Positions 3,692-43,857 of a stretch of 64,000 nucleotides of DNA are shown in pieces. The first letter of the stretch is position 1. Each line of letters begins with the position of its first letter. The stretch is from Multifurca ochricompacta (lineage: Eukaryota; Basidiomycota; Agaricomycetes; Russulales; Russulaceae), in contig WTXG01000126.1 of NCBI GenBank assembly GCA_022496185.1, positions 46,071 to 110,070 on the forward strand, written 5' to 3'. The notes under the pieces are model-generated. The model worked only from the letters and a program-made list of their open reading frames with translations. It did no database searches and was not told the origin of the DNA. The translations under genes were made by a program, and so were the position numbers.

Positions 3692-4206
3692 TGTCAAACA
3701 ATCATGCTGCTGGTTATACTGACTGTGGTTAGTAGCGGTTAGGCTAGAAGACAAGTTATACTTCAGAGGAAGAAGAACTCTTATAATACTATACTACTGA
3801 CCTAGAAGACAAGTTATCTACACAGAGAATGTTAGTCAAAGGAAAAGTAGAAAGTAAAGTAAAGACAACTTACACTTCAGAGGAAGAAGAACTCTGAAGT
3901 GTAAAGGTCAAAACAGACACCCTTATATACCCATAGGGGCCAGGGGAAATGGTCTGTGCGCACTGGGAATAAGTCCACAAGTGCCGGACAATTGGCAGAG
4001 AGGGATAAAGGCCATTGGCCAAAGAGATATCACATGCTTACTGCGCATTACTAAGTCCATCACTAATCAGCTGAGTAAGGAGAGAAAGAAGTGTAATAAA
4101 GATATCATAAAAAGTCTGAAACTCTGGAACCTAAGATCTAATCTTATCTACAGCTAAAGCAATCCTTAGATGCCTGAAGCATCTCCAGACACGTCCCGTG
4201 TCAACA
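3692..4206 (-). repeat. Copia B#1 3' LTR
   Basis: A 515 bp LTR. Read on the minus strand, the leader exon is 3895-3874. The intron-like segment is 3873-3818 (GTAAGT, TGACTAAC, GTGTAG) and the second exon 3817-3802. The joined repeat is at 3781-3744, 38 of 38 bases identical to exon 1 plus exon 2. The short purine run GGAGGGA just inside the LTR is a likely plus-strand primer. Confidence 0.93.
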
Positions 4207-4470: not shown

Positions 4471-7400
4471 CCAAATCCAGTTACCATGTGATCAAAAGAT
4501 GATCTAGGCAGAGACTTTGTAAGGCCATCTGCTAGCATCTCTCCAGTGGGAGTTCACACCAAGTCTATCTGGTGTGATTCTACATACTCCCTAATGGCAT
4601 GGTACTTTATTGGTATGTGCTTTGATCACCTTCCTGTGACAGGGTTTAATGCAAGATCTACTGCACCCTTATTGTCACAATGCAGTTGTATGGGTGAACT
4701 AACTTCATATCCCAACTCCTGCATGAATGTCCTATACCACACTGCCTGATTTGAAGCCTCAGCTAGGCTCATATACTCAGCTTCAGTGGTGGACTGTGCT
4801 ACTGTCTTTTGTTTCCTGGAACACCAACTAATGGCTCCATTGGCTAAGAAAAAGACATAGCCAGAGGTGGAGTGGTGGTCCTCTTGATCTCCCCATGAGG
4901 AATCCGCAAAGCTGTGAAGGCCTACTTCACCATTCCCTCCAGAATAGCGCAACTTGTAGTCTTTTGTAGCATTTAGATAAGCTAAGACATATTTTGCTAG
5001 TTGCATGTGCTGCTGGGAAGGGTTGGAAGCAAATTGGCTAAGGCGTGCAACAGCAAAACTAATGTCAGGTCTGCTTCCAATCTGCACCCAAAGCAGAGAC
5101 CCCATTAACTGCTGATACCTCTTAATATCAGAGGTAGATGCCTGGTCTTCAAACTTGACCAAATGAACATCCACGCCAGAGGGTAGAGGAGTATATACTG
5201 GGTTGGAATCCCCCATTCCAAACCTCTCAACTATGGAGGATACATAGGCTGTCTGGTCGATGTCCAGTGTCTTGTTAGGACGGTCCCTGGTGATGTTAAC
5301 TCCAAGGTAGGACTGGATTTCACCAAGATCGGTCATCTCATATCGGCTAGATAGAGAGTCCTTCAGCCATTGTATCTTCTTAGTGGAGGACCCAAGTATA
5401 GTGATGTCATCAACATATAAAATGACGAAAAGTGAACCATCCCCCTCTTGGTGATGATACACATATACTCCTGCATCAGAGTATGTCCGAGTAAAGCTCA
5501 GTTCATTGAGAACTGCATGAAATTGCAAGTTCCATGCTCGGGAAGCTTGTTTGAGGCCATACAGAGCCTTCTGCAGCCTACAAACTTTGGACTCTTGTCC
5601 AGCAACGACAAAACCAACAGGTTGCTCCATATAAATCTCCTCATCCAGATCGCCATGTAAGAATGCCGATTTGACATCCATTTGGTGGATTTCCCAATCC
5701 TCAAGCACGGCCAACACTAATAGTAGTCTAAGAGACTCAAATCTGGCGACTGGGGAGAAGGTTTCATTGAAGTCCACCCCCTCTATTTGGGTGAACCCTT
5801 TTGCTACAAGCCTAGCACGAAAGCGTCCATCTGCTTTCAATTTAAAGACCCACTTGGACTTTACAGCCTTTCTACCTTCAGGAAGGTCTTCAAGGCGCCA
5901 CACTTTAAGTTTTTCTAAGGCATCAATTTCATATTGACATGCCTCAAGCCAATCACTGGCATTATCAGACTCCATTGCTTCTTTAAATGTAAGAGGATCC
6001 CTGTAGGGCGATCCTGCAGCATTTAACAGATCCATCTGACTAAGTCTGGAAGAACCCTGCACAAACTCTGCATTATCCTCGTTGTAGAAGCGAGGATTCA
6101 GACAATGATTTCGATTGGGATGTGCAGTATCCAAGTCTAAATCTTCTTGGATTGCCCTATCTTGTCGTTCAGAGTGTGGACTTGTCCTCTGAAAATTAGG
6201 TTGAGGAAGTCTGCCTGCAATCCTTTCTGATTTCCTGATTGCACGGGTTCTTTTGGGAGGGGAGGATGGTTCCATAACTTGTGATGGAGGGGTCTGATAT
6301 ATAGTCTGAGGGTGTGTGGTGTCTACATTACATGTGGGTGTGGTAGGCTGTGGTGGTAATTGAGGAGGTACGATGTCCTCCTGTTCCTCTTCCAGGTCTT
6401 CCTCATCTTGAGGAGCCTCAGGAACATGTGTAGCTGTTGCTGGTGGTGGCTGGACTGGGCCACTAGGTAAAGTAAATGAGCCACCTTGGCTAGGTTGCTC
6501 TATTGATTTCTCTGCTCTGTTGTCCTTATCAGAGCAGGATGGGAAGGATCTCTCATCAAATGTAACATCTTGTGAAGAGATGAGAGACTGGGTATGACTA
6601 TCCCAAAGTGTGTAGCCCTTAGAAGTGGGCTCATACCCGACAAAGACGGCTTCCCTGGCTTTGGGATCTAATTTACGCCGCTTCCCCTCTGGAACATGAT
6701 AGTAGGCTTTGCAACCAAAGACCTTGAAATACGAGACATCTGGTTTGTTCCCAACCAGAAGCTCAAGCGGAGTTTTCCACTTATTAGAATGGATGGGAGT
6801 TCTGTTATATATATGACATGCTGTTTCAACAGCACACTCCCAAAAACCAAGAGATAGGCCAGCATCGTGCAGCATGCTAGTGCCTTTTTCCATTATGGTT
6901 CTATTAAATCTCTCGGCCCTTCCATTCTGTTGTGGACTATACGGCATCGTAAGTTTATGCTCTATGCCAAAATCTTCAAGCATTGCCTTCAGCACCTTGT
7001 TCACATACTTGCCACCACGATCTGTATGAAGACACTTAATTTTATGATTGAATTTGTTTTCAAGTAGTGTCTTCAGTTTACTAAAAACTGGTGTAAACAG
7101 ATCTTTTGACTTCATTGGAACGATTAAAGCATATCTGCTAAAGTCGTCCAAGAAAGTGGCAAAGTATAGATTCCCTTGTATTGAACTGCACTGCAAGGGA
7201 CCTACAAGATCACTATGAAGGATCTCAAGGGGGGCTGATGCGCACTTTGAAGATGGGGGAAATGGAAGATGATGGGACTTGCCCATTTCACAGCCATAAC
7301 ACGGCTTGTCTTCCACTTGGCTATTACTGATTTTGAGGCCTTTAACTGCCTCTGGAGCATATCTTTTCAGGGCCTCTTTTGACATATGGCCCATCCTCTG

Positions 7401-8777
7401 ATGCCAGATTTCTAGTGAGGCAGATGCAGATGTATGGATACTACTTAGGACGTGTTTGCCTAGTACCCAATACAATTTGCCAAACTTCCATGCTTCCGCT
7501 ATGATATTATTGCCATATTTTATTGTTGCCTTCTTATTATTGAAGAACACAGTTGCCCCTTTTTCTACTAGGGCACTGGTGGAGAGTATTTTATGTCCTC
7601 CAGGCATGTGGAGCACATTGCTCAATTCTAAGTCAAAACCTTGATCAGTCCTGATGATCACGGTACCAACTCCATTTGTTTTGACTATGGAGTTGTCACC
7701 TAGTGATACTTCATGGGTGGTGTCGACTTTATACGTATCAAAGTCTTCAAGGTTGGGACTGAAATGAGCCGTTGCTCCACTATCAAGCATCCAATAATCT
7801 GAGTTGATATCCAGATTATAGGTGTGAACATAAAGGCAAATGCAAGGTGCTTCTTGCACCTCCTCTATTTTGCCACTACCATTAACTATGGTGGCTATAG
7901 TATTAACATGTTGGGCCTCAGCCCTCTTCTTGTTCCCTGCCTTGCCCTTTTTGGCATTTTCTAGGTCCTTCTTCTTCTTTGCACAAGCATTGGACTTGTG
8001 TCCAGGCTTTTGGCAATAGAAGCAGACCACCCCTTGTGAACCAGGGGCAGCAGCGGGAAGTGGTGATAAATATTTTGGTTTGTTTGATTTGACGGGTGCT
8101 ACCTTAGATAGGACAGCACTACCACTTCCCAAGGGACCCGCCAGGCGACTTTCCTCATTTAGGAACCTCTGCACAAGGTCCTGAGGAGAGAGTCGCTCTG
8201 GATCGCCAGAGGCCAGTATGGAGCCAGCAATGGCACTGTAGGAGTCTGGGAGAGCTTTTAACAATATAAAGCTCATCTGGAGGTCATTGACCTCCATCCC
8301 ATTCTCCCTAAGGGTACTCCTGGCATCCAGAACCTTTTGTAATTGGGTTCTGAATGTCTGTCCTTCATCAAGACAGAAGGACACCAGGGCAAGCCACAGA
8401 TTATATGTGGCCATGCTACCTACAGAGCCATACAGCCGCTCCAACTTGTTATACTTCTCACTAAGAGAAGGATAGTTGGCATCAGAAGCTACTTGAGAGT
8501 AGACTTCTTGGGTAACGTTAAGAAAGAGGAGCCCAATAAGCATTTCCTCTTCTCCCATCCATTCCCTAAGGATGGGGTCAATTACTTCCTTCTGCATTTT
8601 CTCCTTTTCCTCCTTGTCCTCTGGGAGGAGGGGCATGTCAGGGTAGGGCGTCAGAATGTGCCTCCTGAGCCCATTCATCCTCAAGAGGGCATTGAAATTG
8701 GCAGACCAGACCTGCCAGTTGGAGCCATCAAGGCGCTCCATCTTGGAGGAGGGAGGGAAGACAATTGAGGATGGCAT
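4471..8777 (-). CDS. Copia B#1 Gag-Pol polyprotein (stop codons near the C-terminus)
   Basis: An uninterrupted frame of 1,383 codons runs from 8777 to 4626. Domains in order: UBN2-type gag (from about residue 15), zinc knuckle CFYCQKPGHKSNAC (about 251-264), aspartic protease WMLDSGATAHF (about 326-336), GAG-pre-integrase WHQRMGHMSKE (about 456), integrase core with HSDLVGPL and HTDRGG (about 513-590), reverse transcriptase with YVDDITIL (about 1120), and RNase H ending in LHCDNKGAVDLALNPVTGR. A TGA at 4628-4626 stops the frame where copia A reads RRSKHIPIKYH. The same frame continues to about 4471 as a recognisable RNase H tail, with a second TGA at 4556-4554. Both stops look like CGA to TGA changes and are also present in copia B#2. 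The start MPSSIVFPP is conserved in the other copies. Confidence 0.92.
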
Positions 8778-9716: not shown

Positions 9717-10231
9717 TGTCAAACAATCATGCTGCTGGTTATACTGACTGTGGTTAGTAGCGGTTAGGCTAGAAGACAAGTTATACTTCAGAGGAAGAAG
9801 AACTCTTATAATACTATACTACTGACCTAGAAGACAAGTTATCTACACAGAGAATGTTAGTCAAAGGAAAAGTAGAAAGTAAAGTAAAGACAACTTACAC
9901 TTCAGAGGAAGAAGAACTCTGAAGTGTAAAGGTCAAAACAGACACCCTTATATACCCATAGGGGCCAGGGGAAATGGTCTGTGCACACTGGGAATAAGTC
10001 CACAAGTGCTGGACAATTGGCAGAGAGGGATAAAGGCCATTGGCCAAAGAGATATCACATGCTAACTGCGCATTACTAAGTCCATCACTAATCAGCTGAG
10101 TAAGGAGAGAAAGAAGTGTAATAAAGATATCGTAAAAAGTCCAAAACTCCGGAACCTAAGATCTAATCTTATCTACAGCTAAAGCGATCCTTAGATGCCT
10201 GAAGCATCTCCAGACACGTCCCGTGTCAACA
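9717..10231 (-). repeat. Copia B#1 5' LTR
   Basis: A 515 bp LTR that drives the element. TATA box TATATAAG is at 9954-9947. The leader exon is 9920-9899, the intron-like segment 9898-9843, the second exon 9842-9827, and the joined repeat 9806-9769 (38 of 38). The leader exon starts about 34 nt after the TATA box, a normal distance for a transcription start. Confidence 0.93.
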
Positions 10232-13483: not shown

Positions 13484-13991
13484 TGTCAAACAATCATGCT
13501 GCTGGTTATACTGACTGTGGTTAGTAGCGTGTTAGGCTAGAAAGACAAGTATACTTCAGAGGTTGAAGAAACTCTATTACAACTATACTACTGACCTAGA
13601 AAGACAAGTATCTACAAGAGATGTTAGTCAAAGGAAAGTAGAGAGTATAGTAAGACTTACACTTCAGAGGTTGAAGAAACTCTGAAGTGGAACAGACGAA
13701 ACAGACACCCTTATATACCCATGGGGGCCAGGGGAAATGGTCTGTGCACACTGGGAATAAGTCCACAAGTGCCGGACAATAAACAGAGAGGGATAAAGGC
13801 CATTGGCCAAAGAGATATCACATGCTTACTGCACATTACTAAGTCCATCACTAATCAGCTGAGTAAGGAGAGAAAGAAGTGTAATAAAGATAACATAAAA
13901 AGTCCGATACTCCGAGATCTAATCTAATCTAATCTACAGCTGAAGCGAACCTAGATGCCTGAAGCATCTCCAGACACGTCCTGTGTCAACA
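13484..13991 (-). repeat. Copia B#2 3' LTR (TSD TGGCT)
   Basis: A 508 bp family B LTR. Exon 1 is 13683-13661, intron-like segment 13660-13612 (49 nt), exon 2 13611-13596, and joined repeat 13575-13537 (39 of 39). The left flank is TGGCT (13479-13483). Its partner duplication is AGCCA at 24776-24780, on the far side of an inverted segment. Confidence 0.92.
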
Positions 13992-17457: not shown

Positions 17458-17988
17458 TGTGAAACAGGCATGTGCGCAGCATACTGACTGTAGAAGTTAG
17501 CGGGTTAGGCTAGAAAGACAAGTTATACTTCAGAGGTGAAGAAAACTCTATTGTACTATACTACACACCTAGAAAGACAAGTTATCTACATGAGACGGTT
17601 AGTCAAAGGTAAAGTAGTAAGTAAGAGAAATGGGACTTACACTTCAGAGGTGAAGAAAACTCTGAAGTGTAGAGGACGAAACAGACACCCTTATATACTA
17701 TCCAAGGGATGGTCTGTGCACTTGGAATAAGTCCACAAGTGCCGGACAAAGTCCAAACAATAAACATGAGGGAGAAAGGCCATTGGCCACTACAGAAATC
17801 ACATGTTACATGGTGCATCAGTCAGCTACTGCGGAATGTGAGAAGGAAAGTAATAATGATAATGTAAATAGTCCGAAACTCCGGTATCTAATCTAATCTA
17901 CAAAGTAGCTAATCTAATCTAATCTACAAAGTAGCTAATCTAATCACCTGATGCCTGAAGCATCACCGAACATCTTCTGTGTTCAACA
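17458..17988 (-). repeat. Copia A#1 3' LTR
   Basis: A 531 bp LTR. It is longer than its relatives because a short segment around TACAAAGTAGCTAATCTAAT (about 17899-17945) is duplicated in tandem. Exon 1 is 17663-17641, intron-like segment 17640-17586 (55 nt), exon 2 17585-17569, and joined repeat 17549-17510 (40 of 40). Confidence 0.92.
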
Positions 17989-23549: not shown

Positions 23550-24043
23550 TGTGAAACAGGCATGTGCGCAGCATACTGACTGTAGGTTAGCGGTTAGGCT
23601 AGAAAGACAAGTTAACTTCAGAGGTGAAGAAAACTCTTATACTATACTACACACCTAGAAAGACAAGTTACTACATGAGACGGTTAGTCAAAGGTAAAGT
23701 AGTAAGTAAGAGAAGGGACTTACACTTCAGAGGTGAAGAAAACTCTGAAGTGTAGAGGACGAAACAGACACCCTTATATACTATCCAAGGGATGGTCTGT
23801 GCACTGGAATAAGTCCACAAGTGCCGGACAAAGTCCAAACAATAAACATGAGGGAGAAAGGCCATTGGCCACTACAGAAATCACATGTTACATGGTGCAT
23901 CAGTCAGCTACTGCGGAATGTGAGAAGAAAGTAATAATGATAATGTAAATAGTCCGAAACTCCGGTATCTAATCTAATCTACAAAGTAGCTAATCTAATC
24001 ACCTGATGCCTGAAGCATCACCGAACATCTTCTGTGTTCAACA
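23550..24043 (-). repeat. Copia A#1 5' LTR
   Basis: A 494 bp LTR. Compared with its partner it lacks many single bases scattered through the R/U5 half. Exon 1 is 23746-23724, intron-like segment 23723-23671 (53 nt), exon 2 23670-23655 (16 nt, one base shorter than in the partner LTR), and joined repeat 23637-23599 (39 of 39). The repeat shows the same one-base loss as exon 2. Confidence 0.92.
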
Positions 24044-24780: not shown

Positions 24781-25177
24781 TGTTGACACAGGACGTGTCT
24801 GGAGATGCTTCAGGCATCTAGGTTCGCTTCAGCTGTAGATTAGATTAGATTAGATCTCGGAGTATCGGACTTTTTATGTTATCTTTATTACACTTCTTTC
24901 TCTCCTTACTCAGCTGATTAGTGATGGACTTAGTAATGTGCAGTAAGCATGTGATATCTCTTTGGCCAATGGCCTTTATCCCTCTCTGCCAATTGTCCGG
25001 CACTTGTGGACTTATTCCAGTGCGCACAGACCATTTCCCCTGGCCCCATGGGTATATAAGGGTGTCTGTTTCGTCTGTTCACTTCAGAGTTTCTTCAACC
25101 TCTGAAGTATACTTGTCTTTCTAGCCTAACACGCTACTAACCACAGTCAGTATAACCAGCAGCATGATTGTTTGACA
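24781..25177 (+). repeat. Copia B#2 5' LTR, intronless form
   Basis: Only 397 bp, against 508 bp for its partner LTR at 13484-13991. After the TATA box (about 25051-25058) it has one copy of the leader, in the joined form. The TTCTTCAACCTCTGAAGT part runs straight into ATACTTGTCTTTCTAG, and U5 follows. The intron-like segment, the spacer and one repeat are missing. The result equals a doubly spliced leader. A deletion between the two direct repeats would give the same sequence. The primer site GGTTATGGGCCC follows at 25178. Confidence 0.9.
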
Positions 25178-27221: not shown

Positions 27222-27725
27222 TGTTGAACACAGAAGATGTTCGGTGATGCTTCAGGCATCAGGTGATTAGATTAGCTACTTTGTAGATTAGATTAGATAC
27301 CGGAGTTTCGGACTATTTACATTATCATTATTACTTTCCTTCTCACATTCCGCAGTAGCTGACTGATGCACCATGTAACATGTGATTTCTGTAGTGGCCA
27401 ATGGCCTTTCTCCCTCATGTTTATTGTTTGGACTTTGTCCGGCACTTATGGACTTATTCCAAGTGCACAGACCATCCCTTGGATAGTATATAAGGGTGTC
27501 TGTTTCGTCCTCTACACTTCAGAGTTTTCTTCACCTCTGAAGTGTAAGTCCCATTTCTCTTACTTACTACTTTACCTTTGACTAACCGTCTCATGTAGAT
27601 AACTTGTCTTTCTAGGTGTGTAGTATAGTATACAGAGTTTTCTTCACCTCTGAAGTATAACTTGTCTTTCTAGCCTAACCCGCTAACTTCTACAGTCAGT
27701 ATGCTGCGCACATGCCTGTTTCACA
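27222..27725 (+). repeat. Copia A#2 5' LTR
   Basis: A 504 bp LTR with TATATAAG at 27487-27494. The inferred transcription start is near 27520 (CAGAG, about 33 nt downstream). Exon 1 is 27521-27543, intron-like segment 27544-27598 (GTAAGT, TTGACTAAC, CATGTAG; 55 nt), exon 2 27599-27615, and joined repeat 27634-27673 (40 of 40). The block 27616-27673 starts with GTGTGT and ends with TTTCTAG, so it could itself be a second 58 nt intron containing the repeat. Confidence 0.94.
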
Positions 27726-27737
27726 GGTTATGGGCCC

Positions 27738-28659
27738 TGAGCACGCTTAACTGATCTGTACTTTCGTTTTTTTTGATCAGTCCAACCTTTCTTCAAGCTC
27801 ACTGCTTCAAGACTCAATCTTCCCAATCACCGTCACAGTGAGCTTCAATTTCTTTATCTCTTGCCCTTAACTGTCCACAAGGTGGTGCACTTTACGTGCC
27901 CACCTTGATCTGTCTGGCTAGTCCCTCAGGGGATTCTTGCAAGAGGTGATGAGGGACCCTAAGCGGGTGAAACACCTTAAGTTCCTCATGTGCGCTCTAA
28001 GTAAATAGTATTCTTAGTTGTAGCTGGGTTTTCGTCCCATCCATAGTCTTAGTAGGCCACTTGCCCAGAAGGCTTGGGGCTATAGGTTCAGTCAATGCTT
28101 GGCTCGATCCGTAAGCCAGGTTTAGCGACCTGCTGGTAGAGTTTAGGGTCTAGAACAAGGCATGGGTAGTCACTCCCATGACACTTGGGCTCGATACAAG
28201 TAGGCTTGAACTACTATAGTATATACACAGTAGCTAGAGGGTTTCGTCTCTGGGCAGAAGTACCCGCTGCTTTCATTGGGGGTCCGCCCCAACCAGAGGA
28301 AACCTAATAGTCTACTATAGTCATGGCCCCAATCATCTAGGGCTTAATCATGGACTCCACCACCAGCACTAGAGGAAGGGCTCTATACCCTTTGTCTCTA
28401 GTGGAACTTGCGGTTGGCTTCTCCATGACATGACTCCCCATCTATTTACACAATGTCCCCCTGATATGGGCTTAGGACTTGTTATAGATGGCACTAGACA
28501 GTTTACTATACTACTTAGAAGTCGCACATCAGAGGCAGGACTTTTTTAAGTTCTGAAGCATAGCACCACAGAATGGACGGGCCCTCTTCAATGAGACCTG
28601 GACAACTGGTTCTAACTGCTCCTTGGAACCAGGATCAACCTTTTTAAAATCATCTCAAA
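27738..28659 (+). other. Copia A#2 untranslated leader
   Basis: About 920 bp lie between the primer site and the gag start. There is no credible frame. Parts resemble the copia B leader, for example the stretches around CAAGGCATGGGTAGTCACTC and GGCCCCAATCATCTAGGGC, so the two families share ancestry here. Confidence 0.55.
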
Positions 28660-33302: not shown

Positions 33303-33807
33303 TGTTGAACACAGAAGATGTTCGGTGATGCTTCAGGCATCAGGTGATTAGATTAGCTACTTTGTAGATTAGATTAGATACCGGAGTTTCGGACTATTTA
33401 CATTATCATTATTACTTTCCTTCTCACATTCCGCAGTAGCTGACTGATGCACCATGAAACATGTGATTTCTGTAGTGGCCAATGGCCTTTCTCCCTCATG
33501 TTTATTGTTTGGACTTTGTCCGGCACTTGTGGACTTATTCCAAGTGCACAGACCATCCCTTGGATAGTATATAAGGGTGTCTGTTTCGTCCTCTACACTT
33601 CAGAGTTTTCTTCACCTCTGAAGTGTAAGTCCCATTTCTCTTACTTACTACTTTACCTTTGACTAACCGTCTCATGTAGATAACTTGTCTTTCTAGGTGT
33701 GTAGTATAGTATAATAGAGTTTTCTTCACCTCTGAAGTATAACTTGTCTTTCTAGCCTAACCCGCTAACTTCTACAGTCAGTATGCTGCGCACATGCCTG
33801 TTTCACA
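33303..33807 (+). repeat. Copia A#2 3' LTR
   Basis: A 505 bp LTR nearly identical to 27222-27725. Exon 1 is 33602-33624, intron-like segment 33625-33679 (55 nt), exon 2 33680-33696, and joined repeat 33716-33755 (40 of 40). Only three bases (AGG) separate its end from the next LTR fragment. Confidence 0.93.
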
Positions 33808-33810
33808 AGG

Positions 33811-34298
33811 AGATGTTCGGTGATGCTTCAGGCATCAGGTGATTAGATTAGCTACTTTGTAGATTAGATTAGATACCGGAGTTTCGGACTATTTACATTA
33901 TCTTTATTACTTTCTTTCTCACATTCCGCAGTAGCTGACTGATGCACCATGTAACATGTGATTCCTATAATGGCCAATGGCCTTTCTCCCTCTATTTGTT
34001 TGTTTGGACCTTGTCCGGCACCTGTGGACTTATTCCCAGTGTGCACAGACCATCCCTTTGGGTATATAAGGGTGTCTGTTTCGTCTCTTTCACTTCAGAG
34101 TTCTTCTAACCTCTGAAGTGTAAGTGCCTTCTATACTATCTACTTAACTATTAGACTAACGTTCTCTATATAGAACTTTCTTGTCTAGGTCAGTAGTATA
34201 GTAATATAGAGTTCTTCTAACCTCTGAAGTAACTTTCTTGTCTAGCTTAACCCGCTAACTCATTACAGTCAGTATGCTGCGCACATGCCTGTTTCACA
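33811..34298 (+). repeat. 5'-truncated copia A-type LTR
   Basis: A 488 bp LTR lacking its first 13 bases, butted against the copia A#2 3' LTR. It belongs to the subtype of the solo LTR at 2295 (TTCTTCTAACCTC in the leader). Exon 1 is 34097-34119, intron-like segment 34120-34173 (54 nt), exon 2 34174-34188, and joined repeat 34208-34245 (38 of 38). On its right it interrupts a copia B gag after CGTTC. The partner flank is gone. Confidence 0.9.
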
Positions 34299-35714: not shown

Positions 35715-36216
35715 TGTCAAACAATCATGCTGCTGGTTATACTGACTGTGGTTAGTAGCGTGTAAGGCTAGAAAACAAGTATACTTCAGAGGTTGAAGAA
35801 ACTCTATTACAACTATACTACTGACCTAGAAAACAAGTATCTACAAGAGACGTTAGTTAAAGGAAAGTAAAAAGTATAGTAAGACTTACACTTCAGAGGT
35901 TGAAGAAACTCTGAAGTGAAAGAGACGAAACAGACACCCTTATATACCCATGGGGGCCAGGGGAAATGGTCTGTGCGCACTGGGAATAAGTCCACAAGTG
36001 CCGGACAATTGGCAGAGAGGGATAAAGGCCATTGGCCAAAGAGATATCACATGCTTACTGCGCATTACTAAGTCCATCACTAATCAGCTGAGTAAGGAGA
36101 GAAAGAAGTGTAATAAAGATAACATAAAAAGTCCGATACTCCGAAATCTAATCTAATCTACAGCTGAAGCGAACCTTAGATGCCTGAAGCATCTCCAGAC
36201 ACGTCCTGTGTCAACA
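35715..36216 (-). repeat. Copia B#3 5' LTR
   Basis: A 502 bp family B LTR. Exon 1 is 35912-35890, intron-like segment 35889-35841 (49 nt), exon 2 35840-35826 (15 nt), and joined repeat 35805-35768 (38 of 38). Right flank TTTAT. The matching duplication is not in the window. Confidence 0.9.
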
Positions 36217-36493: not shown

Positions 36494-36998
36494 TGTTGAA
36501 CACAGAAGATGTTCGGTGATGCTTCAGGCATCAGGTGATTAGATTAGCTACCTTGCAGATTAGATTAGATACCGGAGTCTCGGACTTTTTACATTATCAT
36601 TATTACTTTCTTTCTCACATTCTGCAGTAGCTGACTGATACACCATGTAACATGTGATTTCTGTAACAGCCAATGGCTTTTCTCTCTCATGTTTATTGTT
36701 TGGACTTTATCTGGCACTTGTGGACTTATTCCCAGTGCACAGACCATCCCTTGAATAGTATATAAGGGTGTCTGTTTTGTCTCTTACACTTCAGAGTTTT
36801 CTTCACCTCTGAAGTGTAAGTCCCATCTCTCTTACTTACTACCTTACCTCTGACTAACCATCTCGTGTAGATAACTTGTCTTTCTAGGTGTGTAGTATAG
36901 TATAATAGAGTTTTCTTCACCTCTGAAGTATAACTTGTCTTTCTAGCCTAACCTGCTAACATCTACAGTCAGTATGCTGCGCACATGCCTGCTTGACA
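36494..36998 (+). repeat. Solo copia A LTR downstream of the NLR gene (TSD CTTCT)
   Basis: A 505 bp LTR flanked by CTTCT on both sides (36489-36493 and 36999-37003). TATATAAG is at 36759-36766. Exon 1 is 36793-36815, intron-like segment 36816-36870 (55 nt), exon 2 36871-36887, and joined repeat 36907-36946 (40 of 40). It lies 66 bp past the stop codon of the NB-ARC-TPR gene. Its promoter points into that gene on the opposite strand. Confidence 0.94.
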
Positions 36999-37064: not shown

Positions 37065-40000
37065 TCACTTCCAAGATAATTTCCCCATTTTGGATACTGC
37101 ATTATTCAGGAACTTCTGATTGTATTCTGTCCATCTTGGATCTTGTACTTCCTCAAATATGTTTTGGGCCTTCTCCAGCATGCTCTTGGCCTCTTTAAAT
37201 TGTGACCTTTCCATAAGTACCCTTCCCAACCCATTTAGAGCATATCCTTGACCCAAAGAACTCTGAGCAGCTCCATAATAATTAATAGCATTTTGAAATG
37301 AAGCATCTGCCAAGTCTAACTTGTGTAGTTCCAGATATACCCTTCCAAGCCCTTCATAATCTTGTCCCTGACCATAGGGAAGGTTTGCAGTTTTATGGAG
37401 TTCTAAAGCTTTCTGATATGAGGCTTCAGCTTCACTGAATTTTTCAAGACTTGAATAGGTGTCTCCAAGCCCTTTATGATCATTTCCCTGCCATAATACA
37501 TTATTGGCAGTCTTATGAAATTCAAGAGCTTTCTGAAAACACTTTTCTGCCTCATCAAGCTTTCTCATGTCTGTATATGTGTGCCCAAGCAGACAATAAT
37601 CATTTCCTTGACTCAATGCAATATCAGCAGCCTGATGAAGTTCCAAAGCCCTCTTCAAAGAAGCTTCTGCTTCATTTAATTTTCCAAGTACACGATATAT
37701 CCTTCCAAGCCCATAAAGGCAATTTCCTTCAACTAGAACATCACCAGAGGTTCCTTGGAGTTCTGAAGCTTTCTCATATACAGCCTTGGCCTCATTTAAT
37801 GCATCTGCTGTTTCATAGACTTGGCCAAGCTGAAATAGGATCTCAACATGGAGAGGAGTGTTTTGATATGAGCTGGACATGCATAGACTCTCTGCCTGTT
37901 GCATTTTGTGTTTTGCACCTTCAATGTTGCCTGAAAACCGATACAGATTTCCCCATTCCTGAAGACACTTTACCAACAATGATGTGTCTCCATGTTTTTG
38001 CTTCACAAAGTCAACAGTCTGACTGATCAGCTTATCAGAAAAGTCTCCAATAGTTTGATGGAACCATGTAAAATTAATGATAGCACTGACAAGCCTTGTA
38101 TGGCCTTCATAGTTTGACTGTAGAAGACCAAACAGCATGGCCTTTGTGTTATTTGCTTCCAAAACCATCTCAGCATAGTCATGTGCTTCTTGATGATGGG
38201 AAGATGCCAAAGTGATATAGAACTCCTTCAGTGAAGCTTCATGCCTAGGTGACATAAACCCTTGCTTATTGCAAAAGTGACGAATAATTGGATGAGTTTG
38301 ATATCTCTCTCCACTCATGATTATCAAGCTGCATTGCTGGAGCACATGTAGTCCAGAGTGCATCTCTATGTCTCCAAGAATCTCTTCAAATTTATCCACT
38401 TGTTTGATATGCATTCCATCTGGAAGCATGCTGAGAACACCAAGTAGATCCTTGGCAGATGGATTGGCCTTCATCCTCCCACTATCAATAGATAGCTGGA
38501 TAGAGTATTCAACATTTAACAGCTTATGAGCCTGTCCCCTTTGAAGAATTCCTGTCTGCTTTTTACACCATTCTTTCCACAATAATGATGGTGGTGTGAC
38601 CTGGGAAAGATGGGCCAACAAATCGATGGCAAGAGGAACATAATCCACTGCATTCAGAAGCTTCTCTGCAGATTCATCATAAGTGTCACTAATCTTCTGC
38701 CAGATTTGTTTTCCAGCACCATGGCTCAGAGTCTGTAGTGGCGGGAGATTAGGTTGTGTCCACTGTGTACGGGCTGGCCTCTCTGTCCCTCTCATTGTGA
38801 TCAGTACTGTGATAGATTGCAGCTCAGTAATCCTGGACAGTAGTTGTTCAACAGAATGCTTGGTATCACTATCCTGGTCCCAAGGTGATTCAAAGTTATC
38901 AAGACACAGTATGCACTCCTTTGCGACCAACGCAGCATGAATGTGAGACCAGGATGCATCTGAACCCGACCTGAAGACGCCGAGTGACTTGGCAAGTTCC
39001 ACCAAGAGAGCTCCGGATGAGAAGATTGATTCACAAGGAATGAAAAATCTAGCACGACCAAAGTATTCTTGGACACGGTCATGGGTGAGGACTGCATTGG
39101 CAAGGGTTGTTTTTCCATGGCCGCCAGGCCCTAGAATTGCGATGTGGGCAGGATGAGAACCAATGTTGGTGAAAATCATGTGAATGATCTGAGCAAGTTC
39201 CGTGTCGCGGCCGAAGAATATCTGAGGTTTGGATGGCATGGATCTGAGTGATGTCAGTTCCATGGCACGCAGAACGTAGAGATGAGGGGCGCCTACATGA
39301 ATTCGGTTGTTTGACTACGTTCACTAGGGTGGGTGGTAACCTGCTGGATGGGGTCAATCAACCGGTTTCACTTAAAAATGTCAGGCTGCATACCTTGCGC
39401 TCTTGGATTAATTGGGTTAAGAGCGATAAAATCAAGTTAGCCTGCAGACAAATGTTTATATGAAAGATATGAAGAAGGTGCAAAGACTGACCTGGAAAAC
39501 TTGAAGTACATTGGATAACTTGCTGTCGTATTGCTTGACCTTCCTCAATATATCTGTGCGGAGAAGCACTTTCTTGATTCCTCTGACATCCACACACCGC
39601 TGCAAGGCGTCGTCCATTCCGTCAAGGTCCCTTGTTTATGATCAGAGCACGAAATATACGAGAATAACGGGACATACTTCTGAAGAGTTCTAAGGATATC
39701 ACGCAACCCCGGTGGCAGTTCATCCTCTTTCAGATCGTGCGCTTGACACATTTCTCCGACATTGACGAAGACGCTCCCCACGTTGGCTAGCTTTTCCATG
39801 ACAGCTCCCCACTCTTCCTTATATACCTTGACATCCTGTTAACATGCTGATCAACATACGAGACAATTAATAGAGCAGCAGGTGACAAACATCTCGCATC
39901 TTGAGCGCTTGAAGTATGATGCCAGCGATTGGGGAGATGTAGGGGATCTTTCCGGCCAATGAACTAACTTCCTTCAGAGCGGCGAGAGATGTCTCGACCG

Positions 40001-40526: not shown

Positions 40527-43500
40527 ATGTCTCGGAATCCATCTGCATCCACCTCCACGTCGCATTTTCAATCTATCTTCAATGGTGCCTTGAAAGCGTA
40601 CCGGAGGCAAACCAAGAATGATCTTGCTACTCATCCTCTAGCTGCCCAATTACAAACGTGCGACTCTCCCAGTGCCATTTTGGCCGTGCTTCAAGGCCAA
40701 GTCCAGGAGTTTGCCGGATCTCGGGGTGGCAATGATAGGTGGGGAAAGTGGCTCGGTCCAACCGTGAATGTTCTCTATGCATTTTCCGCCACTCTCGGAG
40801 AAGGCGCTGGCTTGGTAAGTCACAAGATATTGGCTCATGCATGTTCTACCATCTCGATATCATATCGATTCCATAGGTATTTTCGCCTGCGAAAGTGATA
40901 TTTGCTGGTATCGGTGTCCTCCTCCTTGTAAGAATTTTCTGTAACCCTCTGCCTCCCAGACTGACATCGGGGTGTCTTAGGCGGCTAAGGATGTTAACGC
41001 GAGCCGAGACGCGCTCCTCAACCTATTCGAGCGCATCGAAAACTTCTTTAAGCGTCTCGAGACTTATACCGAGGTGCCACCAACTGCAGCAATGACTGAT
41101 ATAATAGTAAAGATTATGGTTGAAGTTCTTGGTATCCTTGCCATCGCGACAAAGGACATTAAGCAGGGATCTGCGAGTGCGTTCATCCACAGCAATAATA
41201 GTAGGTTTCCATTGACATATCTTGATTTAGAAAAATATCTGAAAAAATTGGCGGGAAGGACGGATATCGAGGATGCAATAGGGAGGCTAGACAAGCTGAC
41301 ACATGACGAAGCTCTGATGGCAACTGCACAAGTCCTAAAGCTCACACACAGCATTGGTGACAAAGTGACATCGACGGCGAATGAGGCCAAAGTAATCATG
41401 CAGCAGACGGCAAACAACGTCGACAAAGTGAAACGTTAGTAATTTCTTAACGGCAACCTTGTTGGCTACTGACGCTGAATCGCGATCATCGCAGAGAATC
41501 AGATACGACAGGACCTTCGAAGATGGCTCTCTCCACCTGATCCATCAATTAATCAGAACATTGCACGCGCCGCTCACCATAGTGGGACTGCGTCGTGGTT
41601 CTTCCAGGGTAGTATGTTCAAAGAGTGGAAGTCATCTGGCTCGCTCTTGTGGGTCCACGGAAAACGTACGTTCACCCTGCCATTTACATCCTCACTCCCC
41701 CTTATGTTATTGGGGTCTCACAGCGGGCTCCGGGAAGAGCATCCTATGGTTCGCGAATCGCCGAATATTTACTTTGTAGAGACTCACGTCGTCGGCCAGC
41801 TCCACGATAATTGAAGACATCGCGGCCATGGACAAGGCGGGATTAGTCTCGTTGGCATACTTCTATTTCGATTTTAGGGACACTACTAAGCAAGATCGCC
41901 GAAACCTCCTCGCCTCTCTTCTCTTCCAACTATCAGCTCACTCAAATCATCGTTGCAATGTACTGTCCAGCCTTTATTCCACGCACGACAGCGGCACACG
42001 ACAACCGAGCGATGACGTTTTAATCCAATGCCTAAATTCGATGCTCTCACTTCCAAACCAAGGGCCAATCTACATTGTTGTGGATGCGCTAGACGAGTGT
42101 CCGAACACGTCTGGCTTGCCATCTCCTCGGGAGCAGGTCCTTGACCTCTTGAAGGAGTTGGTGGGACGTTCCCTGCCAACTGTTCATATATGCGTTACTA
42201 GTCGGCACGAGATCGACATTCGATCCAGCCTCGAACCTCTGACAACACTCCACGTGTCCCTTCACGACCAAAGTGGACAAAAAGAAGATATCATCGAATA
42301 CGTCAGTTCTGTGGTTCAGTCGGACACAAGAATGCGGAGATGGAGAGAGGAAGACAAGAATCTGGTTATCGAGACGCTATCCGAGAGGGCGGATGGAATG
42401 TAAGGGCTATCTTTGATCTGTGGCGTGAGTTTTTTCATATCCTGAACAGGTTTAGATGGGTTTTCTGCCAACTGGAGACCCTACGGTATTGCCTCCCACC
42501 AAGTGTTCGCCGTATCCTCGAGGAATTACCCGACAGTCTCGACGAAACTTATGAGCGAGTATTGAAGGATATCAACAAGGCTAACCGAGAGCATGCCCAT
42601 CGTCTCCTACAATGTCTCACCGTTGCTGTCCGACCGCTGCGTGTCGAAGAACTTTCGGAGATACTTGCCATTGACTTCAGTTCGGCACAACGAGGAATTC
42701 CGAGGTTGAATGTGGGTTGGAGATGGGAGGATCAAGAAAATGCGGTGCTTTCGACCTGTTCCAGTTTGATCTCTGTCATCGGCGATGAAGGCGGTTATCA
42801 AGTGGTTCAATTTTCGCACTTTTCGGTCAAGGAATTCTTGGTGTCGAGCCGACTGGCAGGTTCAAGTAGAGATGCATCGCAGTATCACATAGATCTCGAA
42901 CCAGCTCATACTATCTTGGCGCAAGCTTGTTTAAGCGTACTACTTCGGTTGGACGATCGGGTTGAAAGAGACAGTGTCGAGAGTAGATTTCCCTTGGCAG
43001 GTTATGCCGCTCGACACTGGGTTGACCATGCCCACTTCGGAGACGTGTCATCACGCATAGAGGACGGGATGGACGACCTCTTTGACTCGTTCAAGCCACA
43101 TTTATTCGCATGGCTCCGGTTAAAGAACATAGACAAAGACTGGGGAAATTCCTTCTTTCGAGTCAACCCGAAAGAACTGGGCGTGGTTCCCTTGTATTAT
43201 TCTGCCCTGTGTGGATTTTATAATCTGTCAGAACGGCTGATCACCAAGAATCCAGAGCATGTGAATGCCAAGTGTGGTAGCCAGAAGACCCCGCTGGTGG
43301 GGGCTCTACAGAAGCAACACTTACAGGTTGCGGATCTACTGTACAAACATGGCGCAAACTTGGACATTCGCGGCAATTTTAACAGGACTCTACTACATGC
43401 ATCATCAAAGGATGGCCCCGTAGGCACTGCTTTGTGGCTGCTTGACCATGGCGCAGATCTGAATGCCCTCGGCTACCAGGACTGGAGCCCACTGCATCTG

Positions 43501-43857
43501 GCGGCAACTAACGGACACTTTGAAATTGTCCGCATGTTACTGCAGCGCGGCGCACCTATCAACCCTCGAGGTAGTGATGGTTGGACACCATTGGAAGGGG
43601 CATCAAATAATGGCCACCCTGACGTCACACGATTTTTACTAAAGCAGGGCGCAGACGTGAACTCACAAGATGAGAACCTCGAAACAGCGTTGCACCGGGC
43701 TGTACACCATCGGAGGCTCGAGGTCGCACGGCTGCTACTTGAGCATGGTGCGAACGCAGAGCTGAAGGATATCAAGGGTAGGACTCCACATCAGGTTGCA
43801 TTAAAAAATGGATATCAGGAGAGTGCGAGCTTGTTGTCAGAATATGGCGCCAAGTGA
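40527..43857 (+). CDS. Goodbye-NACHT-ankyrin NLR-like protein
   Basis: Eight exons give one 980-residue frame: 40527-40814, 40877-40927, 40981-41176, 41231-41434, 41495-41665, 41724-41748, 41800-42399 and 42450-43857. The N-terminus (FQSIFNGALKAYRRQTKNDL, LATHPLAAQLQTCDSPSAIL, AVLQGQVQEF) fits the fungal Goodbye domain. A middle helical part (YLKKLAGRTDIEDAIGRLDK) follows. The NACHT domain has Walker A GKPGSGKS assembled across the fifth and sixth exons, and Walker B IYIVVDALDECP. The C-terminus has about six ankyrin repeats (DWSPLHLAATNGHFEIVRML, GWTPLEGASNNGHPDV). Length and order match a family common in Agaricomycetes. Probable cytosolic sensor; its trigger is unknown. The exon of only 25 nt (41724-41748) sits inside the P-loop. 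Confidence 0.9.

Follow-up and report, generated by a model that had tools for sequence, protein, structure and literature searches.

The window, by which we mean the whole 64,000-nucleotide stretch of Multifurca ochricompacta DNA that was analysed, is occupied by nested copia-type elements. Between LTRs of the same family as the LTR at 27222, which serves as our example, lies a copia-type gag-pol open reading frame of 1383 aa on the minus strand (4626-8777), whose domains follow the order Retrotran_gag_2, Pol_BBD, gag_pre-integrs, rve (514-615), SH3_retrovirus and RVT_2 (958-1198). Integrase thus precedes reverse transcriptase within a single polyprotein, as in Ty1/copia. The LTRs have TGTTG...CA ends and are flanked by 5-bp target-site duplications (TAAAG, GGCAT, CAAAT, CAATT, AATTT, CCCTT, TATCA, CCCCC and CTGGG), which is again the Ty1/copia arrangement; in one insertion (L132/L133) the LTRs end in ATA and the duplication is ACCCA, and no matching duplication was seen at L094/L095 or L096/L097. 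A primer binding site, GGTTATGGGCCCTG, follows the 5' LTR and the polypurine tract GAGGGA precedes the 3' LTR in 10 of the 11 LTR pairs listed, the stretch for L059 beginning only at the LTR; these two sites are likewise those of a Ty1/copia element. The family is thus a Ty1/copia LTR retrotransposon. Its closest proteins elsewhere, mostly from short contigs tagged ena or jgi, share 47-60% identity over most of the query, and one scan of viral_contigs gave no match. Outside the retrotransposons, the window carries host-type NACHT/TPR and ankyrin-repeat open reading frames at 37065-39263 (minus strand) and 42340-43857 (plus strand), the former with many relatives in Russulaceae.

The example LTR, TGTTG...TCACA, occupies 27222-27725 on the plus strand, with ends set by matches to other LTRs, and is directly adjoined by the primer binding site (27726-27739), which may indicate initiator-tRNA priming. 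The probable promoter is marked by a TATA box, TATATAA (27487-27493), about 34 nt upstream of the putative transcription start. The last bases of U3, TACACTTC (27513-27520), form one arm of an inverted repeat, being the reverse complement of GAAGT|GTA, which spans the donor of the first intron described here. The leader then consists of E1, a 23-nt segment (27521-27543) that would be the RNA 5' end and first exon; intron 1, a 55-nt segment GTAAGT...GACTAAC...GTAG (27544-27598) with GACTAAC close to its 3' end; E2, a pyrimidine-rich segment of 17 nt with the 3' end TCTAG (27599-27615); an 18-nt gap (27616-27633) beginning with GTGTGT, a candidate donor for a second intron; and a pre-spliced copy of E1 and E2 (27634-27673), equal to the two exons at 40 of 40 bases. 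After the copy, U5 starts with CCTAACCCGCTAAC...ACAG (27674-27695), a stretch resembling a further 3' splice site; all of these features are on the plus strand. An earlier note on this DNA had placed E1, the GT..AG segment, E2 and the copy correctly; it had overlooked that gap and copy together (27616-27673, 58 nt) are also bounded by GT...AG and make up a candidate intron 2.

The same note had reported a joined copy in 11 LTRs of the window, and indeed each of them has 0 mismatches, despite differences in E1 and E2 between LTRs that include indels. Besides the example, full leaders of the form E1-intron 1-E2-gap-copy with an exact copy lie at 2593-2742, 33602-33755, 34097-34245 and 36793-36946 on the plus strand, and at 3744-3895, 9769-9920, 13537-13683, 17510-17663, 23599-23746 and 35768-35912 on the minus strand. 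The leader at 13537-13683 has E1 and E2 identical to those of an LTR at 24781-25177 (plus strand) that the note had passed over, in which CACTTC-E1E2 is directly joined to U5 (25080-25124, C31:71150; E1E2 at 25086-25124), without intron 1 and without gap and copy. We call such an LTR a null form. A truncated LTR at 1320-1536, also unmentioned there, stops before the leader.

In the 53.8-Mb genome (605 contigs), a pattern made of E1 and the intron-1 donor was found at 1,524 sites and its reversed control at 0, which excludes a chance origin. The leaders examined were the first 100 listed of the 1,524 sites, the 11 window LTRs and neighbours on the same DNA; with 2 instances (at an edge or identical) dropped, these gave 111 different leaders. 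Sampling was by E1 and donor only and was therefore blind to the copy; the remaining members of the 1,524 were counted, their sequences unread. The copy is perfect in 97 of the 111 leaders, and 106 can be parsed, including nine with a mismatched or cut copy (L028, L060, L068, L069, L091, L094, L096, L097 and L104), of which L069 is additionally short of one E1 base. L053 has 1-nt indels, L086 has kept intron 1 and is missing gap and copy, and the leaders of L064, L071 and L088 are interrupted by other DNA. L064 and L071 share the same unrelated insert, beginning CAGTGCCTCACAAAACTG after TA, which is probably a different transposon that has inserted at TA.

The 3' end of intron 1 as defined by homology is AG in 104 of the 106 parsed leaders (the exceptions being L040 and L092), and a CTRAY branch motif lies 15-18 nt before it in 106/106, compared with 13/106 shuffled introns in which the motif was accepted anywhere in the last 25 nt. 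The 5' GT belonged to the search pattern and is therefore not independent evidence. By its GT...AG boundaries and branch motif, intron 1 appears to be a spliceosomal intron. E2 is directly followed by GT in 104/106 leaders, always as GTNNGT (GTCAGT 70, GTGTGT 31, GTATGT 2, GTTAGT 1), and E2, hence also the copy, ends in AG in 104/106, so that gap plus copy has intron boundaries exactly where the homology stops and looks like a second intron. The gap measures 17-20 nt in 104/106 leaders and gap plus copy 56-60 nt. In its branch motif, intron 2 is weaker than intron 1: strict CTRAY occurs in 31/103 leaders versus 13.7 after shuffling, the looser YTNAY in 69, no better than the shuffled 73.5, and TAAC in 85/103 versus 14.5. 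Masking of the intron-2 donor by intron 1 was considered as well; the effect is weak (61/103 against shuffled intron 1) and is not claimed here. The layout as such, an interrupted duplicate, could also result from an ordinary tandem duplication with a small insertion in its first half and no splicing at all, but we regard this as highly improbable given AG, GT and AG boundaries that are fixed by homology in 104/106 leaders each, a CTRAY motif in every leader and near-perfect tracking of the exons in 48 versions.

The LTR order is U3-E1-intron 1-E2-gap-[E1E2]-U5, and the copy tracks its own E1 and E2 nearly perfectly. The perfect leaders comprise 14 versions of E1, 38 of E2 and 48 E1/E2 combinations, and among these 97 leaders a foreign LTR's copy fits the exons in 250 of 9,312 ordered pairings (2.7%). 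Exons and own copy differ at 7 of 4,013 aligned positions (0.17%; 103 of the 106 parsed leaders, with L028, L060 and L069 left out as discordant or cut), a value that is low partly because of sampling on exact E1 and because the exons are, by inspection, poor in CpG. Against another LTR's copy the exons differ by 4.4% even where U3 differs by no more than 3% (73 pairs), and it is this difference between 0.17% and 4.4% that argues for a copy remade about every cycle. E1 and E2 change fast between insertions and the copy follows. In the same close pairs, intron 1 diverges by 9.6%, E2 by 6.4% and U3 by 2.0%; intron 1 (27544 onward) and E2 (to 27615), with their equivalents, thus diverge several-fold faster than U3. 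The earlier note had taken the segment to be spliced and the LTR to have received a reverse-transcribed version of the spliced RNA. The AG at the intron-1 3' boundary, the ubiquitous branch motif and 48 exon versions matched by their own copies all support this reading, which needs to be extended: the copy is renewed at about every replication cycle and does not record one past event, gap and copy resemble a second intron, and 49 LTRs have the doubly spliced form described below.

Concordance between exons and copy might alternatively go back to one ancient reverse-transcription event, after which chromosomal gene conversion kept the two halves identical. In keeping with this, the LTRs of three insertions differ mutually yet agree internally, and exons and copy diverge less (0.17%) than do the two LTRs of several pairs (1, 2, 5, 6, 8 and 11 differences over about 505 aligned positions for six pairs that have target-site duplications). 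The conversion tracts would, however, have to be just 22-23 and 14-18 nt long, with 49-57 nt of unmatched sequence between them on one side. Discordant copies also occur and have persisted (L068/L069, L091, L094, L096, L097 and L104), and part of the low divergence is due to the sampling and exon composition mentioned above. We consider this explanation quite unlikely.

In the three insertions concerned (L027/L026, GGCAT; L030/L031, CAAAT; L050/L049, CAATT), the two LTRs differ by several indels, and one indel is common to E2 and the copy within a given LTR, which suggests intermolecular strand transfer or gene conversion. Because simple reverse transcription gives identical LTRs, renewal of the copy at each cycle must be supplemented by recombination or intermolecular transfer. 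One further insertion (L068/L069, CCCTT) carries E2 ending in ..TTATAG and a copy ending in ..TTTTAG in both LTRs; each version is also found elsewhere together with a copy that matches it (L072; L010 and L032), and the mismatch would be expected if two co-packaged sibling RNAs had each supplied one of the RNA ends.

The last few nucleotides of the gap, at its junction with the copy, are the most variable part of the leader compared (15.5% in the closest pairs versus 2% in U3), and the junction differs even among near-identical LTRs. Under the cycle proposed below, this is where the RNA 5' end would be joined, and the variability is in its favour. Such variability would also be expected if the RNA ended together with the gap and strong-stop cDNA made from its spliced 5' end were attached there without homology, a jump from end to end that would require no unspliced copy in the RNA. 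We nevertheless think this route unlikely, as the gap is near constant in length (17-20 nt, as given above), its tail is mostly inherited within E1/E2 classes and the junction shows no A runs. The base preceding the copy is C in 13/106 leaders, as it is before E1; this would fit an RNA start one base upstream in some RNAs, and mutation is also possible.

At its end, U3 reads CACTTCAGAG (often CTTACACTTCAGAG), the complement of CTCTGAAGTG(TAAG), which spans the intron-1 donor. As an RNA that starts at E1 lacks this arm, it could hide the donor only in read-through RNA. We compared the predicted folding of both situations. The mean predicted hairpin energy is -21.9 kcal/mol when the U3 arm is present and -5.9 kcal/mol when the RNA starts at E1. 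If 8 nt of intron are included, the mean predicted probability that the donor is unpaired is 0.51 for RNA starting at E1 but 0.20 when U3 is added (0.43 with a letter-shuffled U3), the donor being less accessible with the arm in 102/103 leaders. The effect shrinks as more intron is added, with lower accessibility in 91/103 leaders at 20 nt and 67/103 at 30 nt; when the whole leader is folded, the probability is 0.29 versus 0.17 with U3 and is lower in 86/103. Arm conservation was assessed with a pattern that left CACTTC and CTCTGAAGT free. Among the 100 matches listed, CACTTC and GAAGT are each changed once, and 8 have A in place of the loop-side C of CTCT, so that the pair next to the loop is broken in 8/100; no change is compensated. 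The hairpin is therefore conserved, and its arms hardly vary and give no covariation support. On these folding predictions, the U3-E1 hairpin may hide the intron-1 donor at the RNA 3' end.

Joined E1E2 occurs at 1,537 sites genome-wide, versus 1,524 for E1 plus donor, and 50 of the 1,537 are directly preceded by the end of U3. This null pattern is outnumbered about 30-fold by the E1-plus-donor pattern (50 versus 1,524). At 49 sites, among them the LTR at 24781, it reads U3-CACTTC-E1E2-U5, with both segments exactly absent, L126 being something else; removal of both GT..AG segments from a full leader gives E1E2-U5, the same as the null form. The null forms span 31 E1/E2 versions, and their E1/E2 equals that of the nearest sampled full form in 1/49 and that of any sampled full form in 19/49. 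A U3 tree of 150 LTRs (four rows omitted), in which only 20 of 142 branches are well supported and which gives no direction of change, requires the null label to change 29 times, and well-supported branches force at least 9 of these changes; an earlier U3 tree of 157 LTRs, with L126 counted as null, needed 21 changes with 11 forced. Multiple forced changes on these trees mean that null forms arose or reverted repeatedly. Both LTRs are null in the single insertions L128/L129 (TAAAG) and L132/L133 (ACCCA), so that the change probably took place before or during reverse transcription. Null L108 (C5:46732, a 5' LTR) and full L040 (C5:40781, a 3' LTR) lie about 5.95 kb apart with U3 99.7% identical; their flanks, GTATG and ATACA, do not form a target-site duplication, and we rejected the pair as one element with mixed LTRs. 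It is possibly a recombinant element.

We put at about 0.7 the probability that this is a Ty1/copia-type element with two short spliceosomal introns in its R region, both of which survive reverse transcription. With transcription start, splicing and polyadenylation site inferred, we propose the following cycle. Transcription would start at E1. From the part of the RNA that derives from the 5' LTR, introns 1 and 2 would both be spliced out, such that the packaged RNA begins with E1E2-U5, and in the 3' LTR part both would stay. Strong-stop cDNA of E1E2-U5 would then find its landing pad (the 3' R) in the pre-spliced copy of the 3' LTR, anneal there and be extended into gap, E2, intron 1, E1 and U3. 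The product LTR would take U3 through the gap from the RNA 3' end and the copy through U5 from the spliced 5' end, so each cycle would rewrite the copy from the spliced end and inherit the intron from the unspliced end. Intron 1 of the 3' LTR may escape splicing since CACTTCAGAG, present in the RNA only there, could pair with CTCTGAAGTG across the 5' splice site, in line with the folding predictions; intron 2 might remain unspliced at that end through polyadenylation near the copy, as one possibility. End-specific splicing, a U3 hairpin that chooses the spliced end and a pre-spliced landing pad rewritten each cycle would together amount to a self-renewing intron, a combination to which we give slightly better than even odds.

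The reverse-transcribed RNA would have to begin with E1E2-U5, as renewal of the copy would otherwise grow arrays. A model in which only intron 1 is spliced, predicting E1E2-gap-E1E2 leaders or such arrays, was rejected: searching for E1E2-gap-E1E2 by exact pattern gave 3 hits, all coincidences in U3. We also rejected a 5' end supplied in trans by null elements, in which case copies would not match each LTR's own E1 and E2. An intron in R without a copy would be expected to be lost in the next cycle, which would fit the rarity of LTRs with intron 1 only; no second leader of the L086 type was found among 40 candidates scored with the L086 junction.

Under the proposed cycle, a cDNA that landed on the upstream E1 instead of the copy would lose both introns and leave a null LTR, U3-E1E2-U5. 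Deletion between the two E1 repeats could do the same with the landing-pad step otherwise unchanged: recombination of E1 with the E1 of the copy yields exactly U3-E1E2-U5, and L086, with intron 1 only, fits a deletion between the two E2 repeats. That both LTRs are null in two insertions with target-site duplications speaks against it, and we treat deletion as a tenable but not the favoured origin of the null forms.

Beyond the copy, CTAAC..CAGT (27674-27695 and equivalents) is present in 102/106 leaders. The conserved CTAAC...ACAG resembles a 3' splice site and is possibly used in an mRNA that does not replicate; use of this acceptor in the replicating RNA was rejected, as it would delete the CTAAC..ACAG stretch, yet the stretch is kept in those 102 full leaders. 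It is also present, sometimes mutated, in the null forms listed.

Retrotransposition is the textbook route of intron loss. Here, with 1,524 E1-plus-donor sites and 97/111 leaders intact, an intron is kept in a segment that the two RNA ends share, next to a record of its spliced state. If the proposed mechanism is true, it shows how reverse transcription can pass an intron on, and how splicing can be confined to one of the two ends of an RNA that carry the same repeat. Each LTR would then be a DNA imprint of the RNA 5' end, the splice junction and the strand-transfer point of its last cycle, all readable from the genome alone. As to the benefit of a leader intron, it likely lies in the frequent need of basidiomycete genes for introns in mRNA accumulation. 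Studies on Cryptococcus (PMC3744415), Ganoderma (PMC7017817, PMC8379801) and Armillaria (PMC4935854) describe introns as needed or helpful for expression; they concern host genes and transgenes and offer a motive for a leader intron in a retrotransposon. No description of an LTR or R-region intron of such structure was found among the titles and abstract openings of an incomplete set of open-access literature. Two apparent precedents were set aside: the "intron in the LTR" of PMC5542766 refers to a vector named LTR1, and PMC4256276 concerns the gene ltrB.

Several retroviruses and retrotransposons share single aspects of this arrangement. HIV-2 and SIV have a spliceosomal intron in the 5' untranslated leader within R-U5, which overlaps R as it does here. 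Their packaged genome is the unspliced RNA and the intron needs no protection, whereas in the present family the reverse-transcribed RNA would be spliced E1E2, because a renewed copy requires a spliced template. In HTLV-1 and BLV, a 5' splice site in R, present at both RNA ends, joins downstream acceptors for subgenomic mRNAs. The donor thus lies in R in both cases, but the LTR of these viruses is not known to contain a whole intron, as it does here. The domain that contains the major 5' splice site of HIV-1 is a hairpin. This domain belongs to the leader RNA (PMC4974535); RNA structure at a leader 5' splice site is thus common to both systems, although the hairpin proposed here depends on U3 and would differ between the RNA ends. 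Ogre and the Arabidopsis copia element EVADE are, like this family, LTR retrotransposons with functional introns, which in their case serve subgenomic RNAs by alternative splicing, and EVADE is also a Ty1/copia element; unlike here, the passages on them in PMC12786077 mention neither an LTR intron nor a pre-spliced copy. PMC12786077 also recounts that spliced retrotransposon RNA of intron-marked Ty gets reverse transcribed. The product of marked Ty is intronless, whereas here intron 1 is kept in the product LTR and the spliced sequence appears to be written beside it.
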